Part shown: in pieces, positions 6,895 to 25,206 of the stretch
Layout of the letters: each line of letters opens with the position of its first letter
How positions within the stretch are numbered: the stretch's first letter is position 1
IMG/VR virus record: IMGVR_UViG_3300036806_000341
Span: 1 to 32,990 of that record
Length of the DNA stretch: 32,990 bases
DNA from: a virus
Reading direction: 5' to 3' (one strand)
Translations under genes and position numbers: made by a program
The notes under the pieces: model-generated
Told to the model about the DNA's origin: nothing
What the model saw: the letters and a program-made list of their open reading frames with translations, nothing else
Databases searched by the model: none

Positions 6895-7782
6895 TCACCA
6901 TCCAGAGATTGTCGTCGTCGGGAATGCGGGTCGGTTGCGGCGCTCCCGCTCTTCCGCCGCCTCCCGCTCCGGCATCGCGAATTCCACGCCCGGCCAGCGG
7001 TCGCAACGCCAGATGTTCACTCCGGCCTCGGCGTCCTCGGGGTGGCGGGTGAAACGACAATCATCTACCCACGCCACGTTCATATCTCGACTTCGGTGTC
7101 CGTTCCGGTATCCAGTTCTGGTTTCATTGAGGTTCAACGGGGCGACCGTAAACGTCACCTTCTCGATTGGCTGAGCGGTCGCCGGCATCTCGCGGGGGAT
7201 GCGGCCGGTGCCGTTGCAATCTCCGTGCTTATAAGACGGGCTCATAGGATGTTTGCCGTGCACAATCCCGAAATCACAGCCAAGACATCCCTCCATCTGC
7301 GTCGGGTGCCAGAACACGTTGGCCTCGTGAGCCAACCAAACGATCCAGGGGCCGGTCAACTCGGCGATGAAGCCACGACGGAATACGACATTATCCTGTG
7401 TGGGGATCAAGCCTGTGCATTCACACCGGCGACATTCTACGAGGCCTGTCTCATAGTCCGGTCCCTGGTTCTCGCAGGACGGACAGTGCTCCATTACGAG
7501 CGGATCGGGAAGCCCATCCGTCCACGCGCCGAAGTTTGTTTTGAGCAATTCCCGCTGGCGTTGCCGAAGTTCGTATTTCCGGCATTGACCGCCCATCGAG
7601 CAGGGGAACACCGATCCGTCACATGAATGACAACTCGTCCGCGCCAACTCGCACTGCACCCGCACGAACTCTCCGCGCTCGCCCTGGCCGTGCTCCGCGA
7701 GCCAATCGGCGTACACCAGCCGCGGGGCATCCTCGGCCGGGTAGGCAAGAACCGCACGGTAGAGCATGTCGGCGTCGGTCAT
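6895..7782 (-). CDS. TIGR02996 repeat-companion domain protein with DnaJ-like CxxC clusters
   Basis: A 295-residue protein. Residues 1-50 hold the repeat-companion domain (AVLAYPAEDAPRLVYADWL, then RGEFVRVQCELAR) that in Gemmata and myxobacteria usually precedes leucine-rich-type repeats. Here the repeats are absent. Residues 50-145 instead hold several CxxC pairs (CHSCDG, CPSCENQ, CRRCECTG), similar to the DnaJ central zinc domain, and a further CLGCDFG...CNGTG lies near 190-215. It ends in a charged region. The start at 7782 has only a weak CGGAA site. This is the clearest host clue in the window: a host-derived gene taken up by the phage. Confidence 0.75.
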   Translation of the reverse strand: MTDADMLYRAVLAYPAEDAPRLVYADWLAEHGQGERGEFVRVQCELARTSCHSCDGSVFPCSMGGQCRKYELRQRQRELLKTNFGAWTDGLPDPLVMEHCPSCENQGPDYETGLVECRRCECTGLIPTQDNVVFRRGFIAELTGPWIVWLAHEANVFWHPTQMEGCLGCDFGIVHGKHPMSPSYKHGDCNGTGRIPREMPATAQPIEKVTFTVAPLNLNETRTGYRNGHRSRDMNVAWVDDCRFTRHPEDAEAGVNIWRCDRWPGVEFAMPEREAAEERERRNRPAFPTTTISGW

Positions 7783-7855
7783 GCGTTTGGTTTCCGCCGA
7801 GTATATTGATCCACGAGGCTCCTAAGGTCTAGATGGTGATCGTATCGCGCGGTAT

Positions 7856-8203
7856 TCACGCGGGCACCTCGTCTTCGTCTTCGTCTTCGTCTTCGTCTTC
7901 GTCCTCGTTCTCTATCACGCTGTTAACGACGATGGCCAGCTTATCCGCCGGGATCAAGTTGATAATCTCGGTTACGCTCGGCGGCCCCTTCTCGCCGCGC
8001 AGTTCAGCACGGATACCCTCAGCGTTCATCCCGAGTTCGTGCGTGAACACGGGACGTCCCAAGGTCTTTTCGAGAGCCTCATGGAAGACGCCAAACGGCA
8101 TACAGAGTTTTTCCTCGAACATCTGAAATTCCGCGATCTGGCGAGGCGTCATGTCCTTCCAGAACTCCGACTCTGCCAGTTTGATTGCCTGTTCTTCGGT
8201 CAT
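7856..8203 (-). CDS. Phage protein of unknown function with acidic Glu-Asp repeat tail
   Basis: A 115-residue protein; the GGAGG site 7 bases before the ATG at 8203 fixes the start. Residues 1-70 match the partial gene at 1-222 (same family, see there). Residues 70-98 are a short helical link. Residues 99-112 are a run of alternating Glu and Asp, encoded by a 6-bp microsatellite. Acidic tails of this type often bind basic proteins or mimic DNA, but this one may be neutral length variation. It lies directly downstream of the split SbcC genes. Confidence 0.75.
   Translation of the reverse strand: MTEEQAIKLAESEFWKDMTPRQIAEFQMFEEKLCMPFGVFHEALEKTLGRPVFTHELGMNAEGIRAELRGEKGPPSVTEIINLIPADKLAIVVNSVIENEDEDEDEDEDEDEVPA
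7870..7908. repeat. 6-bp microsatellite encoding an Asp-Glu tail
   Basis: About six near-perfect units of GTCTTC on the plus strand, coding for alternating Asp and Glu on the minus strand. Since the unit is 6 bp, slippage would change length without breaking the frame. Confidence 0.9.
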
Positions 8204-8234: not shown

Positions 8235-8804
8235 CTACCCAATCTCAATAATCTTCCCGCACGCAAGTGCCGGTGAATGCGTCACCAACAGAAACTGCAC
8301 GCCCATGTCCGCCGCCAGGGATTCCAGCAGTTCCCGCACGCGGGGAGCGTAGTCCCGCGACAGCATTTTCATCGGCTCGTCCAGCACCAACAACCGCCGG
8401 AACGCCGGGCGGGACAGCACCAACGCTGCCAACCGCAACGCAAACGCCGCCACGTCCACCACACCGCCGCCGGCCTCGGTAATCGGGTCGAATTCCCGGC
8501 CGTCGCGGACGAACGCCAGCCGCGCCTCGGTTTTGCCCCGCTTCTGTTCGAATACCACCCGAAACTCGTAGGGCGAATCGAACACCGTCTCGAGGCATTT
8601 CGAAACGACGCGGGCGATCTGGGCGTGGGCCGCATTCTGGACCCCAGCGGCGATTTCCTGAAGGATTTTCTGGGCGTCGGCGGCGTCGGCGGCATTTGCC
8701 CGGACCCCCGCGAGGTTATCGGTTTCCGCCGCGGCCGTGCGTTGCGCGTGGACGTATTCCGCGTAGGCCGGCGTCAGTAGTTTTCGGTATTCGGCGGGGG
8801 TCAC
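8235..8804 (-). CDS. SbcC/Rad50-type ATPase, C-terminal half
   Basis: A 189-residue protein that holds only the C-terminal part of a Rad50/SbcC/gp46 ATPase. It starts with a short coiled coil (about 1-60) and then shows the degenerate signature region (EAGGGVVDVAAFALRLA), the Walker B LLVLDEP with its catalytic Glu, and the H-loop FLLVTHSPAL. It has no Walker A, which is supplied by the gene at 10021-11151. The GTG at 8804 is chosen as start because GAGG lies 6 bases before it. Inference: it pairs with that N-terminal half to form the working ATPase of an SbcCD-like nuclease. Confidence 0.85.
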   Translation of the reverse strand: MTPAEYRKLLTPAYAEYVHAQRTAAAETDNLAGVRANAADAADAQKILQEIAAGVQNAAHAQIARVVSKCLETVFDSPYEFRVVFEQKRGKTEARLAFVRDGREFDPITEAGGGVVDVAAFALRLAALVLSRPAFRRLLVLDEPMKMLSRDYAPRVRELLESLAADMGVQFLLVTHSPALACGKIIEIG

Positions 8805-8821
8805 GGAACACCTCAATCGGT

Positions 8822-8842
8822 CGGGGCATCCTCGGCCGGGTA
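8822..8842 (-). repeat. 21-bp copy of TIGR02996-gene sequence
   Basis: A 21-bp stretch identical to 7723-7743 inside the TIGR02996 gene; read on the minus strand it encodes YPAEDAP in both places. It lies after the stop of the small gene at 8845-8958. See the finding on the possible broken ORF. Confidence 0.8.
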
Positions 8843-8844
8843 CG

Positions 8845-8958
8845 TCAGTACGTCAGGACCGCAACCCACGTATCGAGTTGGCGACCGGCTGGTTCGGCTC
8901 GGATTTCGGCTCGGATTTCGGCTTCGGTGGGGCATTTGATGAGATCGGCGGCGGTCAT
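8845..8958 (-). CDS. Short ORF between SbcC coil and SbcC C-half, possibly truncated by an 8-bp duplication
   Basis: A 37-residue ORF whose ATG at 8958 overlaps the stop of the coil gene as ATGA. The AGRQLDTWVA segment matches a motif (AGRELDxxVAxxVMG) seen in many phage proteins of unknown function. The stop lies within a tandem 8-bp duplication (8840-8847 and 8848-8855). Removal of one copy would give eight more codons ending in YPAEDAPTD, which resembles the TIGR02996 domain. It may be functional as is or a decayed chimera. Confidence 0.5.
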   Translation of the reverse strand: MTAADLIKCPTEAEIRAEIRAEPAGRQLDTWVAVLTY

Positions 8959-9206
8959 TTCTTTTCCAGTAACGCCGCGTATTTGGCCTCGAAGGTTTTC
9001 TTCGCGGCGAGGTATTCGTCCGCCAGCGTTTCCTCGCGGCGTTCGAGTTTGGTCAATTTTCGCGTCGCCTCGTCAACGTCCTCGACGCCGTACTCGCGGC
9101 GGAGGCGTTCCCGCAACGAGGCAACGGCCCCCACGGCGCGGTCGCGTTGCTGTTTCGCGTTCTCGACCCGGCGTTGCAGGGCCTGGAAATCGTCGAGTGA
9201 GATCAT
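8955..9206 (-). CDS. Small coiled-coil protein within SbcCD cluster
   Basis: An 83-residue, almost wholly helical protein with a long heptad pattern (LQRRVENAKQQRDRAVGAV and DEATRKLTKLERREETLADE). The ATG at 9206 is preferred, although 9221 is in frame. It sits between the SbcD-like nuclease and the SbcC C-terminal half. Inference: it could stand in for part of the coiled-coil arm missing from the two short SbcC pieces, or bridge them. Similar small coil proteins occur beside recombination nucleases in other phages. Confidence 0.65.
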   Translation of the reverse strand: MISLDDFQALQRRVENAKQQRDRAVGAVASLRERLRREYGVEDVDEATRKLTKLERREETLADEYLAAKKTFEAKYAALLEKK

Positions 9207-10219
9207 TTGTTTTCCAGCCATTCCAGAAGAAGACCGCGGACTCCCGCCGAAACGGACGCCCCCGCCAGATGACGCATCGCGGCCTCGCGGAACGACACCA
9301 CCCCGTCCGCCGCGGTTTCGAGTAATTTTATCAAATCCCCGGCGTCGATGCCCGCGCGGGCCAGACCCGCGGGTAGTTCGGGCGGGGCGTCCCATAGATC
9401 GCCGCGGGTGTCCAGTTCAACGACGCGGACCGTCCCGTCGTCCCCCAGAACGCCCGCGGTAGGGCGCAGGTGCCGTTCGTCGGCCCGACGGCGCAGAAAC
9501 GCCCCGTGGTTGTACACGTTGGCCGTTTCCCCGTCCCCGGCGGCGTAGAACCCCTGGTGGTTATCGCCGAACACCGCCGCGCCGAACCCCCGCAGGAACG
9601 GTCGTGTGGCGTCCAGCGATTCGTCGGCGGGGGCGTCGGGGTAGGTATGCCCCACGCGCCAAAGGTAACGATGCACCACGGCCAGATTGACCGCGTTCGT
9701 TGCCCGGAGTTTTCCCGTTAGGGGCGTCAACGGGGTTCCCCACGGAAATCCCCACAGCACCGCGCCGTCTATCGGCTCCGGAACGCCGGGCCGGATATTG
9801 CGCATCCGCCCCGCCGCCACGAGCGTCCAGTACGCCGTCTTTTTGAGATCCTCGTAACGGTGGTGGGGCAGGTCGTGTTGCCCCGGTACGGCGTAGATCG
9901 CGGTATTCGGCAGTTCGGCGAGTGCGAAGTTAATAAGCTCGGCCGGGGCGTCCCAGCGGTCGAACAAATCCCCGGCGATTACCAGCGGCAACGACGCCCC
10001 GCCGTTGTTGCAGAGATCGTTCAGCTGTCCGAGGTAGCCGGCCTGGGCCGCGTACCACGCCTCACGGGTTCCCTCCCCGCGTGCGACGGGGACGCGGTGG
10101 GAGAGGTGGAGGTCGGAGGTGAGAATTGCGAGGGGGCGGCCGGCTGATTGCACAGCGGACACCGCCCCGCCGTCTGGGTCGCCAGTTCCGCCTCGGCGCT
10201 TTCCGTTTCGCGTTGCCAT
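9203..10219 (-). CDS. SbcD/Mre11-like metallophosphoesterase (recombination nuclease)
   Basis: A 338-residue protein with the calcineurin-like phosphoesterase motifs in order: SDLHLSH (35-41), AGDLFDRWD (82-90), VPGQHDLPHH (111-120; the usual GNHD is GQHD here), and later VVHRYLW and FGDNHQGF. Such proteins are the nuclease partner of SbcC/Rad50 and process DNA ends and hairpins. GGGAGG precedes the ATG at 10219. The first 199 bases overlap the 3' end of the SbcC N-terminal half in a different frame. The ending (about 260-338) is a helical ATPase- or capping-type region. Confidence 0.9.
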   Translation of the reverse strand: MATRNGKRRGGTGDPDGGAVSAVQSAGRPLAILTSDLHLSHRVPVARGEGTREAWYAAQAGYLGQLNDLCNNGGASLPLVIAGDLFDRWDAPAELINFALAELPNTAIYAVPGQHDLPHHRYEDLKKTAYWTLVAAGRMRNIRPGVPEPIDGAVLWGFPWGTPLTPLTGKLRATNAVNLAVVHRYLWRVGHTYPDAPADESLDATRPFLRGFGAAVFGDNHQGFYAAGDGETANVYNHGAFLRRRADERHLRPTAGVLGDDGTVRVVELDTRGDLWDAPPELPAGLARAGIDAGDLIKLLETAADGVVSFREAAMRHLAGASVSAGVRGLLLEWLENK

Positions 10220-11151
10220 TTCCGAACCTCCCTCTCGGCGTTCGCCGATTCCTCGAGAAGATGACGTAGTTCCCGGAGCTCGTCCGCTACCGCGTCGCCG
10301 TCCGCACGGAGTTGTTTCAGGGCGTCCCAGTCGTCGCCGGGGTCCGGGGCGATCGCCGCCCCGTGGCGTTCGATCTCGGCCAGGATTTCCGCAAGTGCGA
10401 ATCGCTGGGCGGCGGCCTGCGCAGCGTCGGTTCCGGCGTTTGTTGCAATCTGGCCCAGCGGCACCAATTCCACCAGGGGCACCAGTTCCGTTTCGGCGCG
10501 CCCCAATTCCGCCAGTAGTTCCCGGAGCTCGCCGGCGGCAGTTTTCGCCCCCGTCCAGTCCCGCCCCCGTTCCTCGAGTTCGGTTAGTTCCCGGTCCGCG
10601 GCCGCCGTCCACTCCGTGTCCCGTACCGTTTGTTCGGCCTTCGCTAAACGCTCCTGAATCAGTTTCTCGCGTTCGCGGTACGCGCGGACCGCCGCCGCCG
10701 CCCGGCCCAGAATCTCGTCGATTTCGCCCAGATTAACGACGGCGTTCAACTGCCGGGATACCTCGCCGGCCGTGTCCGCAAGCCAGTACGGCGCGTCCAG
10801 CTGCGACTGGAAGTTAACCGGCCCGGTATTGAGGTGGGCGGCGATTGTTTCGGGGACCGACGTTGCCCGGAGACAGGAATAGACCTCGCCGTTGAATTCG
10901 TAAACGTTCTCCCGCTCGGAACGCCGCCGCACCGTCCAGACCCCCTCGGCGCGAACGGATACCGCGGCGGACGCCGCCCCGTCGCGAATGAAGGAATTTC
11001 CCTGCGGACGGTTCTCGGCGACCCAGCGCAGGGCGCGCAGCACGGCGCTTTTCCCTACGTCGGAGGGGCCGACGAGTGTAGTCACGGGCGCAAGTTGAAT
11101 ATCGAGTTTTTTGTGCGCCTGGAAATCTTCGAGGATGATGCGTTCGATCAT
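10021..11151 (-). CDS. SbcC/Rad50-type ATPase, N-terminal half ending at the zinc hook
   Basis: A 376-residue protein. It has the Walker A at 28-35 (GPSDVGKS) of an SMC-like ATPase and a long coiled coil (about 150-325). It ends with a CPLC zinc-hook motif at 331-334 and a 42-residue Ser/Pro/Arg-rich tail that is probably disordered. The C-terminal ATPase half is in a separate gene at 8235-8804. Thus the protein is cut at the apex of the coil. ATG at 11151 overlaps the upstream stop as ATGA. Known role: with the SbcD-like protein, tethering and resection of DNA ends. Confidence 0.9.
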   Translation of the reverse strand: MIERIILEDFQAHKKLDIQLAPVTTLVGPSDVGKSAVLRALRWVAENRPQGNSFIRDGAASAAVSVRAEGVWTVRRRSERENVYEFNGEVYSCLRATSVPETIAAHLNTGPVNFQSQLDAPYWLADTAGEVSRQLNAVVNLGEIDEILGRAAAAVRAYREREKLIQERLAKAEQTVRDTEWTAAADRELTELEERGRDWTGAKTAAGELRELLAELGRAETELVPLVELVPLGQIATNAGTDAAQAAAQRFALAEILAEIERHGAAIAPDPGDDWDALKQLRADGDAVADELRELRHLLEESANAEREVRKWQRETESAEAELATQTAGRCPLCNQPAAPSQFSPPTSTSPTASPSHAGREPVRRGTRPRPATSDS

Positions 11152-11774
11152 TTGAGACCGCAAATCATATCGGGTGTCACCGCCGCCAGAAACGCCCCTA
11201 ACGGCATCGCAACCAGCCCCACCCGATTCTTCTTTTTGCCCGCGGTTAGTTCCACCACCGCGTCCACCACCGGCGGCGGAAAGTCGGCCGCCGGGTCGTT
11301 GAATCCCAAATTCCACAACAGGGCGCGGGGCACGACAATCAGACATTCCCGCCGGTCGCGGCGGTGAATCACCGCCCAGTATCGCGTCCCGGCGTTGGCG
11401 GACGCCTCCTGTGCCTGGGCAATCCATTCCTCCCAGACCTGGGCGGCGGCGCGGACCGGGCGGTCCAGGAGATCGTGCAGCGCGGCGGTGCGATAGCCCC
11501 GCTTCAATTCGAATACAACGGCGCGGGTGAGGGGTTCGCCGGACGCCGCAATTGCGGCCAGGTCGCCGCAATGGGCGGCGGCGGTGCGGCGTCCGGTTTT
11601 TCGGCGGGCGGTGGCGCGGCCGCCGGACTGGGAGGTCCGCCAAAAGATCACGTCGGCGTCGCTGTCGCCGGTCCACCAAACGGACAACAACCGGCAAATC
11701 TCACGCTCGAAGGACGATCCCTTACCGGCGCGGTTGCCGCGTTTTCGTTTAGGTTTAGTCTTCGACTTCGGCAT
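11148..11774 (-). CDS. PD-(D/E)XK-fold nuclease (Holliday-junction resolvase-like)
   Basis: A 208-residue protein with a basic N-terminus. It shows the restriction-endonuclease-fold pattern: E23 in SSFEREICRLL, D71 in HCGDLAAI, and the E89-x-K91 pair in FELKRG. An SGGRAT segment at about 50-54 precedes the active Asp. This pattern occurs in phage and archaeal-type junction resolvases. Its place just upstream of the SbcCD genes fits a role in recombination-dependent replication. The Shine-Dalgarno (GAGGTG) is 12 bases from the ATG, so it is a weak start. A restriction-type or other nuclease cannot be excluded. Confidence 0.6.
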   Translation of the reverse strand: MPKSKTKPKRKRGNRAGKGSSFEREICRLLSVWWTGDSDADVIFWRTSQSGGRATARRKTGRRTAAAHCGDLAAIAASGEPLTRAVVFELKRGYRTAALHDLLDRPVRAAAQVWEEWIAQAQEASANAGTRYWAVIHRRDRRECLIVVPRALLWNLGFNDPAADFPPPVVDAVVELTAGKKKNRVGLVAMPLGAFLAAVTPDMICGLK

Positions 11775-12108: not shown

Positions 12109-13002
12109 TTAGGACTTCTTACCATCGGAAGCTTGGAATCTCCGGACGGGTTGGCGGTTCTGGTTGCCGTCTATCGCGTCGGCCAGCGTTCGCATCCCCA
12201 ACCGTTCGCACAGACGCAGCCAGGCGTTCGGGTCGGGTTTATCGTCCGGTTCCGGACGGAACGCGGGGCAGTTCGGATACGGCAGCGTTACCAGTTCGAG
12301 GTTTCCCCGGTATTCCACCCCCGCCCGGTAGTCGTCGATGGCCCCGCGTTTGGAACCACGGAGCGGTTTGCCGAGGAGATAGTCAATCGCGGTCTTCTCG
12401 CCGACGCCGGGAATCCCCGGAATCTCGTCGGAGGTGCATCCGGCTATTGCCTTCACCTCGGGCCATTGGGACGGCGCAATCCCGTACTCGGCCCGGAATT
12501 GCCGGGCGGTATAGAGATGCCGTTTAGCCGGGATGTACTGGGCCGCGGAACGGGACAGCAGCTGATAGAGGTCACGATCGGCGGAAATCATAATCGCGCG
12601 GTCGTCCGCCGGTAGGTTCCGCACCACCGACGCAATCACGTCGTCGGCCTCGTATCCCTTCGAGAAAAAGACATTGTTGTATCCCAACTCGGGGAGATAC
12701 CGCTGTTTCAGGGCGGAAATCTGCGTACGCATCCCGTCCCGCGCCGTCTCGGCCGCATCGTCCAGTTTGCGGTGCCGCCGTCCGGCCTTATAGAACGGGT
12801 AGGTTCCCTCGCGCAGCCCGTTGCCGGAATCGAAGGCGAACACCAGGTCGGTACTGCCGAGTTCCCACGCGAACGTCCGCAAATCGCGCAGGAAGCCGAA
12901 CACAACGCCCGTCGGTTCGATTCCGTGCGATAGGCCGCCCGTGGAAAAGAAGGCCCGGTGGCAAAGATAATCGCAATCGAAAACGAGCCAGGTTCGGGGC
13001 AT
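12109..13002 (-). CDS. 5'-3' exonuclease / flap endonuclease (PolI N-domain type)
   Basis: A 297-residue FEN-superfamily nuclease. It carries the metal-binding acidic sites D9/D11 (VFDCDY), D58 (FAFDSG), E118/D120/D121 (GYEADDVIASVV), D142/D144 (SADRDLYQLL) and D192. The DNA-binding H3TH motif is at 186-206 (IAGCTSDEIPGIPGVGEKTA). Role: removes RNA primers and flaps during phage replication; it supplies the 5' nuclease that the separate polymerase lacks. The ORF starts 1 base after the stop of the upstream gene, so coupling is likely. Length fits T5 D15-like enzymes. Confidence 0.92.
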   Translation of the reverse strand: MPRTWLVFDCDYLCHRAFFSTGGLSHGIEPTGVVFGFLRDLRTFAWELGSTDLVFAFDSGNGLREGTYPFYKAGRRHRKLDDAAETARDGMRTQISALKQRYLPELGYNNVFFSKGYEADDVIASVVRNLPADDRAIMISADRDLYQLLSRSAAQYIPAKRHLYTARQFRAEYGIAPSQWPEVKAIAGCTSDEIPGIPGVGEKTAIDYLLGKPLRGSKRGAIDDYRAGVEYRGNLELVTLPYPNCPAFRPEPDDKPDPNAWLRLCERLGMRTLADAIDGNQNRQPVRRFQASDGKKS

Positions 13003-15231: not shown

Positions 15232-16383
15232 TCAACCGTATCGGGGTTTTCGGCCGGGGAGACACGCCTCCTCGATCTTCCTCCAGACATCGCCGACCAG
15301 GAGTTGGAGTTCCCGTTCGGCGTCCTCCCCCTCGATTTTGGCAAGGAGTGCGTCCCGCGTCCCCTCAAACCTGAATTCCGGGGCGGTTATTTTGCTGCCC
15401 TTGTCCGCCTTTTTCCAATGCTTCTCACCAACGAGGAAATCGACGCAGCATCCGAGGTCGTCGAGGCCCAGTTTGCGAAGAAACGGCACCTCGATTTTGC
15501 CCTCCCACCCGGTAATGCGGTTCTTTTGAACGTCCAGCTGGAGGAGGTTTCCGACCTCCCGTTCCTTGCCGAGTTTGGTGACCTTGATCGGCCCCCGGAC
15601 GGAGGTCCAGATTTCGACGTGGGCGTAGAAGCGCAACGCCTTTCCCCCGGCCCGCGTTTTCTGCGGCCCGTACCCCATCCCGCCGATTTTATCGCGGGTT
15701 TGGGACACGCCGACGAGGATCGACCCGGTTTCCTGAAGGCGTTGCACGACCCGGTTAATGTTGTTCGAATGCGTCTTGGCCTTGGCGGTCCCGTAACTAC
15801 CGCTGAGATCCCGCTCCTTGCCGTCCTCCAGAGTCTTCTCGAAGGCCGATCTCGCCTCGCCGAATTTCTCGTCATCCGCCTCGGCGAGGAGCGCGTCGAA
15901 GGAATCCTCGATATAGAGGCACGGCCCCTCGTCGAGGGCCGCGTCCAGATTGTAGTACATCTCCTCGACCATCCGGCTGTACTGCGGGTTGTCGCGCGTA
16001 CCGCGGGGCGGTTCGAGACGCCCGGCCAGACGGTCGCCGAAATAGGCCGGGATGTCCATCAGCGCTCCGTTCTCCGAGGCGTCGTAGATAATCCGGTAGT
16101 CGTCGAAATGCTTGTTGCGCGCGAGTTCGGCCGCGACGCCCAGGGAAAACCACGTTTTCCCGCTCGAACTATCGCCGACGAAATAGAGATACTTGCCCTT
16201 GGGCAACCCGCCCGACGTTCGCCCGGCGACCGCCAGGTTCAGCGTCGTGACGCCGAAAGAAACGAAATCGGACGCCGGTATCGGCGGCGTCCGAGGAACC
16301 GGCGTCGTTAGCCGTGCGGCGGTTGCGGCGGCGGTCTTGCGTCCCATAACCCGGCGACTTCGGTCCGCGTGTCGCCCATTCAC
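15232..16383 (-). CDS. RecA/RadA-like recombinase
   Basis: A 383-residue ATPase with the RecA fold. The Walker A is at 70-77 (GDSSSGKT), the Walker B at about 155-161 (CLYIEDS), and a ILVGVSQTRDKIGGMG segment lies near the L1/L2 loop position. Such phage recombinases (UvsX/RecA/Sak4-like) pair homologous strands in repair and replication restart. The GTG start at 16383 overlaps no gene; an in-frame ATG at 16347 is an alternative, and neither has a strong Shine-Dalgarno. It lies immediately downstream of the SSB gene, as is usual for a recombinase and its SSB. Confidence 0.85.
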   Translation of the reverse strand: MNGRHADRSRRVMGRKTAAATAARLTTPVPRTPPIPASDFVSFGVTTLNLAVAGRTSGGLPKGKYLYFVGDSSSGKTWFSLGVAAELARNKHFDDYRIIYDASENGALMDIPAYFGDRLAGRLEPPRGTRDNPQYSRMVEEMYYNLDAALDEGPCLYIEDSFDALLAEADDEKFGEARSAFEKTLEDGKERDLSGSYGTAKAKTHSNNINRVVQRLQETGSILVGVSQTRDKIGGMGYGPQKTRAGGKALRFYAHVEIWTSVRGPIKVTKLGKEREVGNLLQLDVQKNRITGWEGKIEVPFLRKLGLDDLGCCVDFLVGEKHWKKADKGSKITAPEFRFEGTRDALLAKIEGEDAERELQLLVGDVWRKIEEACLPGRKPRYG

Positions 16384-20438: not shown

Positions 20439-21175
20439 GGGGCCACCCTCCCGAAATCGCAAAAGGCCTCGTAGGTCAACGGAAACAGCTTCGCGAACTC
20501 CGCCTCAACGGCCCGCGCCGCCATCTCGATTTCGTAAAGCGGGTACGACACCGCGGACGCCGCCGGTTCGTGGGTGCGTAGCGACAGGAACGCCATCACA
20601 CTTCGGGGGTTGCACGTCACCCAACAGGACGAATAGATTCCGACGGGCAGACAATCGCGGGCCAGTCCGGGGTCGATTCCGAGCCCCAGGTTCTCCTCGT
20701 ATCTCGAGTAGGCGTGCGTGTACACCTCCCGAAGATTTCTGCATAGTTTGTCATACGCCGCCTCGCCGACCTGATTGAGGATGGGCAGAAACTTCGGACG
20801 CCCCGGCTTCCAGTCCTCGATTTTGAACATGGGCCGGTCCCGCGGCGGGATGTAGAAGCGCGGCTCCAGAACCTTATAGCGTCCAGATTCCTCGTTGTAC
20901 GAGAATCCAATGCGATGTCGGTGCCACTCGCGCCATACAAAGATCGGGGCGTGCACAAAGAACGTCATCGAGGCGTGCTCAAAGGGCGTGCCGTGCCGTT
21001 GTCTCATCAGATAGCGTATAAGTCCGCGGTTCGACGACATCTCGGAGTCGTCGATCCGGGCCTCCGGCCCCCGAACGGAAACCCGCGCCGCCGCAACCAC
21101 CGCGGCGTCCGAACCGACGTTCTGAACAACGCTGACCGGAATGTCGCTTGTGAAAATCATACCTTCAATTCCCAT
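20435..21175 (-). CDS. thyX: Flavin-dependent thymidylate synthase
   Basis: A 246-residue protein carrying the ThyX signature RHRIGFSYNEESGRY (RHRxxSxNExSxRY), plus a WREWHRHR helix. ThyX makes dTMP from dUMP with FAD and methylene-tetrahydrofolate, which supplies thymidine for phage DNA. Together with the UDG-exonuclease gene it suggests attention to dUMP/dTMP balance. The ATG at 21175 is used because AAGGACGG precedes it; it overlaps the polymerase stop by 19 bases. Confidence 0.95.
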   Translation of the reverse strand: MGIEGMIFTSDIPVSVVQNVGSDAAVVAAARVSVRGPEARIDDSEMSSNRGLIRYLMRQRHGTPFEHASMTFFVHAPIFVWREWHRHRIGFSYNEESGRYKVLEPRFYIPPRDRPMFKIEDWKPGRPKFLPILNQVGEAAYDKLCRNLREVYTHAYSRYEENLGLGIDPGLARDCLPVGIYSSCWVTCNPRSVMAFLSLRTHEPAASAVSYPLYEIEMAARAVEAEFAKLFPLTYEAFCDFGRVAP

Positions 21176-22593
21176 GTTCCGTCCTTTTCCGTGTAGACCT
21201 TCTTCTCGAACCAGCTCGCGTCCGGTTCGCAAACCTCGGCCTCGATTTCGAGGGGCACTACGATCCAATCCCAGGCCCGCGTTACCCCCTCAACCATAAT
21301 CTCGCGGCAGAGGTTGATGTAGTCATCGCGTTCGTCCGGGTGAACGTCGCCCACCGTACAATCGTGGATCTCGCCGATTACCCGCGAACGCATCCGCAAC
21401 CGGCGGAGGCGGTTGTTGATTCGCGGCAACGACCACAGTAGACACTGGAAGGCGTCGCACTGAATCGGGTAGTTGATTACGTCGTTGCGGGCGTGCGGAC
21501 CGTTGACCGCGAATCCGGTATGCGTCCGGAATCCGCCGTTTCGCTGGTACGCCGCGAACCAGTCCTTCTTCCATTGCGTGTAGACGGGGAATTGCGTGTA
21601 CCAGAGCCATTCCTCGACCTCCTGAACGTGCCGCTCGAACGTGCCGGATTTTGTCTTCTGTTCCGGGTCGCATTCGCCCAGTTCCCGAATGCCGTTCTCC
21701 CGCAGACGGTCGTATATCGACGGCCCGTCCTTACCCACCCGAACGTCCTGGAATTCAATCGCCTCCCAGAGGGAGCGGGCGCACCGCGGGTAGAAATCGC
21801 CGTAGAATTGGGGGAAAACCATCTTGTTCTTGGCCAGGTGCCGGGACACCTTGTTGACCTCGCCCTCCTTGAGGAAGAACAACCGTGCCGCCATGTCCCG
21901 GTGCATGTCCGTGGACGGGTCCCTGATGTAGCGAATGAGATTGGGGTCGTGGTTATAGCACGCGGAGATTCGAACCTCGATCTGGGAGTAGTCGATTTCG
22001 ACGAGTTGGAACCCCGGCCGCGGAATGTAGCACCGCCGGACCATTTCCCCGAGCATGGGGTTTCGCGTGGGTACATTTTGCCAGTTTGGGCCTTGACAAC
22101 TTGACCTAAAAGTAGCAACGGTGTTGAGATTGTAACTGGGATGGACGTACCAGCAACCGTCCGGGGCGCGGACCATCTCGCGCTGGATTCCGGTGAGATA
22201 GGTGCCGCGTCCCTTGCGTAGCTTTTGTGCCCGGAAGTACGTCTTGACGAACGGTAGGTTTACCCCCTCGAACGCCGCCTCGTCGGCCTTGCCGCGTTTG
22301 CCCCCCGCCGTCATGCTTTTGGGTTTGTGCCCCAACTCGCCGAACACCACCCCGGCCAGTTGGTCCGGCGCGGCCAGCTTGGTCCGGTCGCCGTAACGCC
22401 GCCGCCAGATCTTGTAGATCGGGTCGGCCCGCAATTCCTCCTCGATCCCCTTGATGGCCGTCGCCGTGCGGTCGAGGGCGTCCTCGAGATAGGTTTTATC
22501 GACCCGGACACCGTTGTGCTCGATTTCGGCTAACGCGATCGTGCCGTTGTGGAGAAGCTCGTAGGCGGCGGGGGTGGTGCGGAACCGGCCCAT
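21157..22593 (-). CDS. Family A DNA polymerase, polymerase domain only
   Basis: A 478-residue protein with the PolA palm and fingers. Motif A is at 199-208 (EIDYSQIEVR), the O-helix region at 251-265 (RHLAKNKMVFPQFYG) with K255 and the YG pair, and motif C at 408-412 (EIHDC). The usual HDE is HDC here; the catalytic Asp is kept. The thumb starts at about residue 15 with LLHNGTIALAEIEHNGV. The 3'-5' exonuclease is absent from this chain and lies in the gene at 22862-24064. It copies the phage genome. GAGGTG precedes the ATG, which abuts the upstream stop. Confidence 0.92.
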   Translation of the reverse strand: MGRFRTTPAAYELLHNGTIALAEIEHNGVRVDKTYLEDALDRTATAIKGIEEELRADPIYKIWRRRYGDRTKLAAPDQLAGVVFGELGHKPKSMTAGGKRGKADEAAFEGVNLPFVKTYFRAQKLRKGRGTYLTGIQREMVRAPDGCWYVHPSYNLNTVATFRSSCQGPNWQNVPTRNPMLGEMVRRCYIPRPGFQLVEIDYSQIEVRISACYNHDPNLIRYIRDPSTDMHRDMAARLFFLKEGEVNKVSRHLAKNKMVFPQFYGDFYPRCARSLWEAIEFQDVRVGKDGPSIYDRLRENGIRELGECDPEQKTKSGTFERHVQEVEEWLWYTQFPVYTQWKKDWFAAYQRNGGFRTHTGFAVNGPHARNDVINYPIQCDAFQCLLWSLPRINNRLRRLRMRSRVIGEIHDCTVGDVHPDERDDYINLCREIMVEGVTRAWDWIVVPLEIEAEVCEPDASWFEKKVYTEKDGTWELKV

Positions 22594-22861: not shown

Positions 22862-24064
22862 CTAGACTCCCATTTCGGCCTTCTGTGATTTCGCGACCTC
22901 GAACTCCAGCAGAGAATCCAGACCGTTGTAGACCAAAAGGTCCAGTAACGCGACCGACCGGACCTTGTTCGGGGCGTACCCGCCCGGTTCCCGCGGAATC
23001 AAAAACGGCGTTATATGGTGCGCGTAGTCGGGGCATCCCAGTCGGACAAAGGACTGGAACTTCAACCCCGTGACGCCGCCGCGCGGGTCGAGGGCGTGGG
23101 CGGCCAGCATGGTGTCCCAATCCCAGGACGCGACCCGAACGTCCAGCACCGCCCGGCACCACCGGTCCTCGTTTTTCAGGTTGGACGCTATTTTACCTAT
23201 ATCGGGGTTGCGGAGGAGGTTTTTGACCTCGTCCCGAACCGCCCCGTGCCAGGGGAACGCAATCGTTTCCTCCCCCTCCCAGCAAATCGAACAGGACACC
23301 AGATCGGCATCCGCCGCGTCCGGTTTGAGGGGGTTATGTTCGAAATCGAACGCCACCAGCCCGCCCGTGTACCGACGAACGCGTGCGGCGGCCGCAGCGG
23401 GGTCCAGAATCGTCTCAACGCGGCCGGGGTAGTCCGGGGGGCCGTCGGGCCACGGAACGCCGCTTAATTCGAATGCGGCGGTCAGATGCCGGCGGAATTC
23501 GCCGTCCAGAACCGGGTCCTTGGACCGGAGCAGGTAGGAGGGATGGTAGGTCGGGCATATCCAGGCGTTCGGACGATGGTTAGGTATTTGCAACCCGGCC
23601 CAGCGGGAAATGCCGCCCACGTCGTCCCGCCAGACGTGGGCGAGTAGGGATTCCGCCGCGACGCCGCCGAGAAGGACAATCACCGCGGGTTTGAATTCCG
23701 CCAGGGCGTTGAGGAGGTTCGGGCGGCAGTATTCGACGGCCTTCGGGAACCGGTCTAACTCGTTGTGTGGTGGGTGGCACACGCAGGCGTTTGTCATCCA
23801 ACAATCCCACCGCATATCGACGCCGATTTTATCGAGCACCCCCTCGAGATGCCGTCCGGATTTACCGACGAACGGCACTCCCTCCTGGTCCTCGGCCTCG
23901 CCTGGTGCCTCGCCGACGATCATCGCGCGGCGGCGTCCCCGGCCGTCGACCGGCATCTTCGGGGACTGGCACAACTTGAGGATACCGCAGGCACCGCACC
24001 GGGGGATTCCCAGGGACGGGGGGCGGACCTGCATCATTTCGGACTTGGAGAAGAATCCGTCCAT
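22862..24064 (-). CDS. Uracil-DNA glycosylase (family 4-like) fused to a 3'-5' exonuclease domain
   Basis: A 400-residue protein. The N-terminal half (about 20-205) is a family 4/5-type UDG: GEAPGEAEDQ motif at 51-60, HPSYLLR at 174-180, and Cys 23, 26, 96 and 113 spaced as the 4Fe-4S ligands of family 4. The C-terminal half shows DnaQ-type exonuclease sites: D240/E242 (AFDFEHNP), D317 (WDWDTMLAAHAL) and Y379/D383 (VYNGLDS). So this chain holds glycosylase and proofreading, and the separate PolA gene holds polymerisation. The start TAATG overlaps the clamp stop; no Shine-Dalgarno, so it is translationally coupled. Confidence 0.88.
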   Translation of the reverse strand: MDGFFSKSEMMQVRPPSLGIPRCGACGILKLCQSPKMPVDGRGRRRAMIVGEAPGEAEDQEGVPFVGKSGRHLEGVLDKIGVDMRWDCWMTNACVCHPPHNELDRFPKAVEYCRPNLLNALAEFKPAVIVLLGGVAAESLLAHVWRDDVGGISRWAGLQIPNHRPNAWICPTYHPSYLLRSKDPVLDGEFRRHLTAAFELSGVPWPDGPPDYPGRVETILDPAAAAARVRRYTGGLVAFDFEHNPLKPDAADADLVSCSICWEGEETIAFPWHGAVRDEVKNLLRNPDIGKIASNLKNEDRWCRAVLDVRVASWDWDTMLAAHALDPRGGVTGLKFQSFVRLGCPDYAHHITPFLIPREPGGYAPNKVRSVALLDLLVYNGLDSLLEFEVAKSQKAEMGV

Positions 24065-25206
24065 TAGAAGGGATCGTCGCGTTCGTCGTCCGCGTCGCGG
24101 CGGGACGCCCGCGAGGTTTCGGGTTCCGGTTCCGGTTCCTCGTCGTGCTTTTTCTTCCTCGTGGATTGCGGGACGGGTTTTTCCCCGTCCCCGACGCTGC
24201 CGAGGACCGTTATGTAGGTCCATCGTTCGCCGTCAACCCGCAACTTATCGTCGCCGATTTCGCACTCGGGTTTCTTGTTTTTCACTATCAGGGCGAGGAG
24301 ACGCGGGGAAATCCGGAACGTCCGGGCGGGGCCGCGATATCCGGCAAGCTCGAGGTCCTCCCGCGCCCAGCCGTGAACGCCCTCGCCGGTCACCCGCATC
24401 CGCCCCGGCGTCAATTCGACCGTTACTTTGTCGTTGTCCTTGTCCTCGCCGGAGAAAATCCCCGCCAGTTCCGCGGCGGTCTCGGCCCCCTTCGGGAGTA
24501 CGGCCGACTCGCCGCGAACGGCGAACATCGCATCCATGTTCGGATAGGTTTCGGCGAACCGGCGGCAGCTGAAAATCAGCCCGTTCTTGTTGCGGAAATG
24601 CACCCAGTTTTCGGTTTCGGACATCTTGTGCATCCCGAACCCGACGACGTGCTTCAACGCGGACTGGCGCACCAGAAAGGGCCGCTTGTTGCCGCAGGCG
24701 ACGCGGTAGCGTGTGGCCTGGAAGCGGTCGCAGGACTCGAGGAATTCGGGGTGCATGTGGACGCATAGGGTCAGGAATTCGTCCTTGTTGGTCCCCGCCG
24801 TTTCCTGGACGACCTCTACCGCCGCGGAGAAATCCTCCGGGAGCGGCGTCCACCCCGCCGGACGCTCGACGTGTTCGAGGGGCAGGACGATCTCGGATTG
24901 AAGCCGCACCCCGGAGGCCTTCCTCACCCCGCCGATCCGCAATTCCCGGTCGGACGCGGACAGGTCCACGTTCTCGTCCGGGAACTTGTACAGCACGCCC
25001 AACAACGGGGCGGCGTCCACCGCCCCCGTAAAATCCTCCGGGAGTTGCGTCCGCGTCCGGCACGCCACCTCACCGTTGAACGTGACGAGCCAGCCGTTCT
25101 GGAAGACGAAACAGCTGCTCTGTTCGAATACGTCCTTGGTGGACAACCCCGGCCGCACGGTTTCCAGAAGGTTTACAAACTCGGACCGATTGACGGAGGT
25201 CGGCAT
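24064..25206 (-). CDS. Putative DNA sliding clamp (beta-clamp-like)
   Basis: A 380-residue protein. It has about the length of DnaN and a repeated beta-alpha pattern without enzyme motifs (SVNRSEFVNLLETVRPGL; LPEDFTGAVDAAPLLGVLYKF; FRISPRLLALIVKN). The N-terminal region resembles the first domain of phage clamp-like proteins. The last 50 residues are a charged Lys/Glu tail. Its genes are neighbours of the polymerase and clamp loader, which makes a clamp likely. Without a structure search this is a working assignment. The ATG at 25206 has GGTGA 4-5 bases upstream. Confidence 0.65.
   Translation of the reverse strand: MPTSVNRSEFVNLLETVRPGLSTKDVFEQSSCFVFQNGWLVTFNGEVACRTRTQLPEDFTGAVDAAPLLGVLYKFPDENVDLSASDRELRIGGVRKASGVRLQSEIVLPLEHVERPAGWTPLPEDFSAAVEVVQETAGTNKDEFLTLCVHMHPEFLESCDRFQATRYRVACGNKRPFLVRQSALKHVVGFGMHKMSETENWVHFRNKNGLIFSCRRFAETYPNMDAMFAVRGESAVLPKGAETAAELAGIFSGEDKDNDKVTVELTPGRMRVTGEGVHGWAREDLELAGYRGPARTFRISPRLLALIVKNKKPECEIGDDKLRVDGERWTYITVLGSVGDGEKPVPQSTRKKKHDEEPEPEPETSRASRRDADDERDDPF

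Follow-up and report, generated by a model that had tools for sequence, protein, structure and literature searches.

Within a 32,990-nucleotide (nt) virus record (IMGVR_UViG_3300036806_000341, positions 1–32,990; hereafter the window) lies an operon that reads as a Rad50/SbcC ATPase encoded in separate pieces together with a nuclease of the SbcD/Mre11 type. A canonical Rad50/SbcC chain has a single hook CxxC motif, placed at the apex of its arm, and one zinc is shared by two chains. An earlier note on this DNA, centred on positions 8235–11151, had proposed that the Rad50/SbcC gene is split just past the zinc hook, with SbcD, a small coiled-coil protein and a short open reading frame (ORF) between the halves, and the genes found there bear out this arrangement. 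The operon runs in the order PDDEXK/RusA-like gene, N, D, S, 37-amino-acid ORF and C, and all genes near the finding are on the minus strand. The span 8235–11151 does hold the features that the note described, although its start is the stop of the C-half and the operon extends further upstream to include the PDDEXK/RusA-like gene. The features are as follows.

11148–11774, minus strand: PDDEXK/RusA-like resolvase gene, upstream in the operon
10021–11151, minus strand: N, the Rad50/SbcC N-terminal half, 376 amino acids, with N-lobe (Walker A, Q-loop), helical arm and CPLC zinc hook
11047–11070, minus strand: Walker A codons of N, GPSDVGKS
10150–10161, minus strand: zinc-hook codons of N, CPLC, residues 331–334
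9203 to about 10162, minus strand: D, the SbcD/Mre11-type metallophosphoesterase, about 320 amino acids
8955–9206, minus strand: S, an 82-amino-acid coiled-coil protein
8845–8958, minus strand: 37-amino-acid ORF separating S and C
8235–8804, minus strand: C, the Rad50/SbcC C-terminal half, 189 amino acids, with coil root, GGG signature, Walker B (LVLDEP) and H-loop
8376–8381, minus strand: Walker B codons of C, D142-E143

Three junctions (PDDEXK/N, D/S and S/37-amino-acid ORF) are ATGA stop/start overlaps. The D frame matches Metallophos (PF00149, 5e-7) and likely starts at GTG 10162, with GTG 10153 or ATG 10219 as alternatives; both candidate GTG starts overlap the hook codons of N in another frame, and the 42 residues of N past CPLC are translated out of frame over the SbcD gene.

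N and C carry complementary parts of a Rad50-type head. Among 49 N-halves, G28, G33, K34, Q117 (the Q-loop residue of the window protein), C331 and C334 are invariant; among 50 C-halves, G114 (within the GGG signature at 112–114), D142 and E143 are invariant and the H-loop H176 is kept in at least 90%. The N profile matched the Rad50 heads 5f3w and 3aux at about 1e-14 to 1e-18, as well as 6zff and 1l8d, two structures of the Rad50 zinc hook. For the C profile, 3qkr_B and 1ii8_B came first, with 1f2t_B close behind (Rad50 C-lobes, 4e-18); all three are C chains from Rad50 constructs in which the two halves are separate polypeptides. In an AlphaFold2 (AF2) model of the window N (pLDDT, the predicted local distance difference test score, 84), Foldseek matched the N-lobe to Rad50 9a9j and 1f2u; VIA-align of the model gave Z 10–14 across RecF, SMC and Rad50 heads, so that fold by itself does not distinguish Rad50 from the other two. 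Crystal structures of Rad50 as two chains show that a head can assemble from separate halves. The motifs of N and C thus provide good support for a predicted ATPase head assembled from two chains, as the earlier note had argued it must be. TIGR00618, the NCBIfam sbcC equivalog model, gave no match to the window N or C at E up to 0.01, its cut-off was exceeded by no genome with the split and not by most one-piece SbcC either, and PHROGs places the pieces in separate families labelled 'exonuclease' and 'ATPase'.

The zinc hook of N is homologous to that of Rad50, as indicated by the 6zff and 1l8d matches and the invariant cysteines, with one exception described below. Because one Rad50 chain has one hook CxxC, N should be the only piece to carry it, and no CxxC was found in S or C in the viral set. 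The premise of the earlier note that the usual hook needs one CxxC per coil was mistaken: all 20 of the one-piece SbcC proteins that we fetched contain one CPxC each, near mid-chain.

To find relatives in IMG/VR, HMMs (hidden Markov models) had to be grown from two-row alignments that paired the window proteins with those of Bacillus phage vB_BboS-125, and these were run over IMG/VR loci. A 49-row N alignment was too diverse for use in scans, a nucleotide search of phages with the window operon gave no match, and the C-half alone retrieved no relatives from phages or IMG/VR. All four of N, D, S and C are present in 72 of 91 distinct viral or phage loci, window included, and in 35 of 40 loci from bacterial genomes, so that the same genes recur in more than 100 loci besides the window. 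Together with the hmmscan and profile matches to Rad50, this recurrence shows that the observation goes beyond chance. The complete phage loci are arranged either as N-D-S-C, the window type (36), or as N-S-C-D (36), and the bacterial ones as D-N-S-C (25) or N-S-C-D (10). The placement of SbcD and the coil between the halves therefore holds in the window and is, as a general rule, only one of three gene orders.

The break itself is conserved. Complete N-halves nearly always terminate shortly past the CxxC (median 11 residues after it among 119 N-halves), and in every viral and bacterial locus examined the N-lobe and C-lobe, which Rad50/SbcC joins in one polypeptide, lie in separate ORFs, no ORF containing both halves. 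The fusions seen, for which the earlier note had suggested a search, join D to N and occur in two viral loci, L008 and L099, the latter being a D-N-S-like fusion. In Bacillus phage vB_BboS-125, gp32 is N, ending CPLCEQTHKGGGC, gp34 is a 78-amino-acid S and gp35 is C; SbcD lies unannotated at 9247–10227 of that locus (L003), and an AP2-domain gene, possibly a homing-type mobile gene, is inserted between N and S at 7407–7979. The isolated Microcystis phage Mvi-JY20 (L196, 5608–8480) has a full N-D-S-C set in which the four proteins are annotated as hypothetical; its hook variant reads CSQC, and this phage is a possible laboratory model. The uncultured phage LR745208 also carries all four genes. 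The exception to the zinc hook is Microbacterium phage Magritte, a hookless variant: its N-like protein (L004, 6001–7053) has no CxxC, and its N-like and C-like (L195, 284–934) genes are far apart in the record, near 93.8 kb and 0.3 kb respectively.

The split form also occurs on bacterial chromosomes. In Aedoeadaptatus ivorii the order is ftsK-rimO-pgsA-cinA-recA-D-N-S-C-rny, where the flanking genes are what we take them to be from inspection of their sequences. Of the 25 chromosomal D-N-S-C loci, 22 have a RecA motif about 2–2.8 kb upstream of N, and in 20 the genes are followed by RNase Y. We sampled 100 genomes of the order, taken as Tissierellales from its named members, and found a free C ORF in 53, a canonical SbcC in 34, both in 1 and neither in 14, a near-exclusive distribution (Fisher test, 3e-14, phylogeny ignored). 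Across the class, a strong N match was found in 11 of 118 genomes. Over 80 loci, the tree distances of the four genes correlate with r of 0.76–0.93, against a permuted maximum of 0.135, so the four are inherited together. It appears that the split form replaced one-piece SbcCD in Tissierellales-type bacteria.

The arm of N is variable in length and periodic. Between Walker A and the hook there are 258 to 483 residues, with the values falling into clusters, whereas the lengths of S (mostly 77–90 residues) and C (mostly 190–220) are near-constant. Self-comparison of long N arms gave peaks at a lag of 47 residues and then at 94 and 141 (z 30, 20 and 17), and shorter arms also peaked at 47 (z 13 and 11); no such repeat was found in the ascending or descending arms of the 20 one-piece SbcC (z 1.9 and −0.4). 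Ahead of the hook, prolines cluster about every 49 residues, and helix breaks are similarly spaced in an AF2 model of N from Aedoeadaptatus. We read the N arm, helical with breaks in AF2 models, as probably built of 47-residue helical units, with a predicted return strand shared between the S and C genes. A descending strand made of S and C only was rejected for long arms: because N varies in length and S and C do not, the two cannot form the full return strand.

The position of S is indicated by the L099 fusion, whose chain extends 136 residues past the hook. The last 56 or so residues of this tail scored 16.2 bits against the S model, a score reached by none of 1,000 shuffles and none of 201 coil windows from N arms; this S-like tail therefore places S where the returning strand would be. 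S is found beside C in nearly all loci, directly ahead of it with a median gap of 14 nt, and almost every complete locus keeps the order N, then S, then C, which is collinear with the SbcC chain. S is thus part of the system, and the role in the arm that the earlier note suggested for it is likely: we consider that S probably forms part of the arm near the hook. It is unlikely, if a serious competitor, that S is instead a separate protein outside the arm that serves the split ATPase as adaptor, chaperone or regulator. Such a role would suit a short helix-turn-helix coil whose length is nearly constant whatever the length of the N arm, which found only generic coils and no informative match in the Protein Data Bank, and which is not adjacent to N in N-D-S-C loci; the proximity of S to C, the collinear order and the S-like segment fused past the hook in L099 argue for a place in the arm.

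Two further alternatives concern the module as a whole. That a frameshift, stop or assembly error broke an ordinary SbcC gene in the window could be entertained for a single contig whose D, S and N frames overlap and are long, and a read error was what the earlier note had named as able to undo its claim. The same break past the hook, with the same intervening genes, recurs in unrelated phages and bacterial chromosomes with D and S intact, and free C ORFs of 186–249 amino acids occur in 53 genomes; these homologous loci already refute an artefact, whose probability we regard as negligible. A frameshift joining N to D, the frames of which overlap, was likewise rejected because the natural fusions run D-N, not N-D. 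It is also very improbable, if less so than an artefact, that N and C belong not to an SbcCD but, by function or by descent, to an ABC system directed against phages or hosts (Lamassu LmuB, MADS3 or ASRP/ClsN-like). PADLOC and NCBIfam did return weak matches of N to LmuB (7e-10; 5e-19 for the N of locus L138), of C to mad3 (2e-10) and of N to archaeal ASRP (2e-9), and the PADLOC scan, which covered N, S, C and D only, gave nothing convincing for S or D. These weak matches reflect shared ABC-head similarity, and the constant SbcD/Mre11 partner, the Rad50-like zinc hook, the recA neighbourhood and the near-exclusivity with canonical SbcC all speak against a defence origin.

The nuclease partner varies in its active site. 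We checked the SbcD/Mre11 phosphoesterase motifs (DxH, GDx(F)D, GNHD, H and GHxH): in the window D, motifs I, II and IV are intact, while motif III reads GQHD and motif V reads GDNH. The two changes are coupled. They occur together in 30 of 80 loci (the window and 29 others); the motif V histidine is kept in 49 other loci, 46 of which have the asparagine in motif III, and one locus pairs that asparagine with aspartate in motif V. In chromosomal D the motifs are canonical. Judged from these residues, nuclease activity or metal use may differ in the GQHD/GDNH clade.

We are highly confident that N, S, C and D constitute one split SbcCD-type (Mre11–Rad50) complex, and the best reading is an SbcC that is by nature made of three chains and acts together with SbcD. 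As for physical assembly, the position of S and biochemical activity, we infer the following. N and C would fold together, as separate chains, into a single ABC ATPase head of the Rad50 type, to which N would give the Walker A and Q-loop and C the signature, Walker B and H-loop; with ATP, a pair of these heads would engage on an SbcD dimer. One zinc bound jointly by the CPLC ends of two N chains would link the arms. The N arm would be largely self-contained, made of helical units of about 47 residues. Close to the hook, S would provide part of the strand that returns to the head, and the short coil with which C begins would provide the part at the head. In the phage, the complex could process DNA ends or hairpins in replication and recombination. 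Several observations weigh against this reading. The C signature reads GGG(V/I)xD, not LSGG, and the window clade of D has GQHD/GDNH in place of the canonical Mre11 GNHD/GHxH. N arms vary by more than 200 residues and S and C do not, and the position of S comes from one fusion, L099, which was missing from the matches of the first S HMM search (E up to 10). The exclusivity test takes no account of phylogeny, and the reading as a whole is drawn from sequence and single-chain models.

Like bacterial SbcCD and archaeal–eukaryotic Mre11–Rad50, the system combines Rad50-type head motifs, a Rad50-like hook and an Mre11-type partner in linked genes; unlike them, its Rad50 is cut past the hook into N, S and C, has a GGG signature and a 47-residue repeat in the N arm that is absent from the 20 one-piece SbcC, and scores far below the SbcC family cut-offs. 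The two-chain constructs of P. furiosus Rad50 (1F2T/1F2U, 1II8, 3QKR) also form one head from separate N-lobe and C-lobe chains, but they were made in the laboratory and are without the full arm, whereas the split described here is natural and includes arm, hook and S. In the Mre11/Rad50 fusions of Mimivirus R555, Bacillus phage 0305phi8-36 and Anaerostipes (PMC3175470), D precedes Rad50, as in L008 and L099. The accessible text of that 2011 study states that one SbcC P-loop NTPase segment was not observed in 0305phi8-36 and Anaerostipes, and it reports no separately encoded C-half or split; the missing segment would fit a separately encoded C-half. The archaeal SMC-related proteins ASRP, coalescin and Sph (PMC9389158), to which the weak NCBIfam match of N belongs, share the ABC head and zinc hook but are, in the accessible text of that paper, single-chain and archaeal, with no linked nuclease mentioned. 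Among open-access papers, we found none that describes a split Rad50/SbcC.

Rad50/SbcC is regarded as one long self-folded chain. With a natural cut at the hook, head, arm and hook are genetically separate, and omitting or swapping subunits could show what coil continuity, zinc binding by the hook and assembly of the head each contribute. More tentatively, we put forward as a possibility that Rad50 can exist natively as an exchangeable multi-subunit assembly, with a two-chain head, a hook at one chain's free end and an arm that steps by 47 residues, replacing one-piece SbcC in a bacterial order and travelling in phages. If so, arm or hook could be remodelled by subunit exchange, which is beyond the reach of a single-chain Rad50. 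Anaerobic bacteria seemingly without SbcCD may hold the unrecognised form beside recA, and the finding gives a corrected annotation for phage genes at present labelled 'exonuclease', 'ATPase' or 'hypothetical'.

The 37-amino-acid ORF is not conserved in the module and is probably unrelated to it. Together with a fragment, YPAEDAPTD, that resembles part of the TIGR02996 domain, it occupies 8805–8958 between S and C, a stretch that looks like gene debris. Because the window gene at 6895–7782 carries TIGR02996, a Gemmata-type domain, the phage host is probably a planctomycete. The split SbcCD genes are surrounded by a recombination block that comprises a UvsX/RecA-like recombinase gene (15232–16383, minus strand), a 5′–3′ exonuclease gene (12109–13002) and the PDDEXK/RusA gene. 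Further along the window, neighbouring genes at 21157–22593 and 22862–24223 (both minus strand) match different parts of one long DNA polymerase family in PHROGs (phrog_17), the second also matching family-4 uracil-DNA glycosylase, and the replicative polymerase of this phage may also be split.

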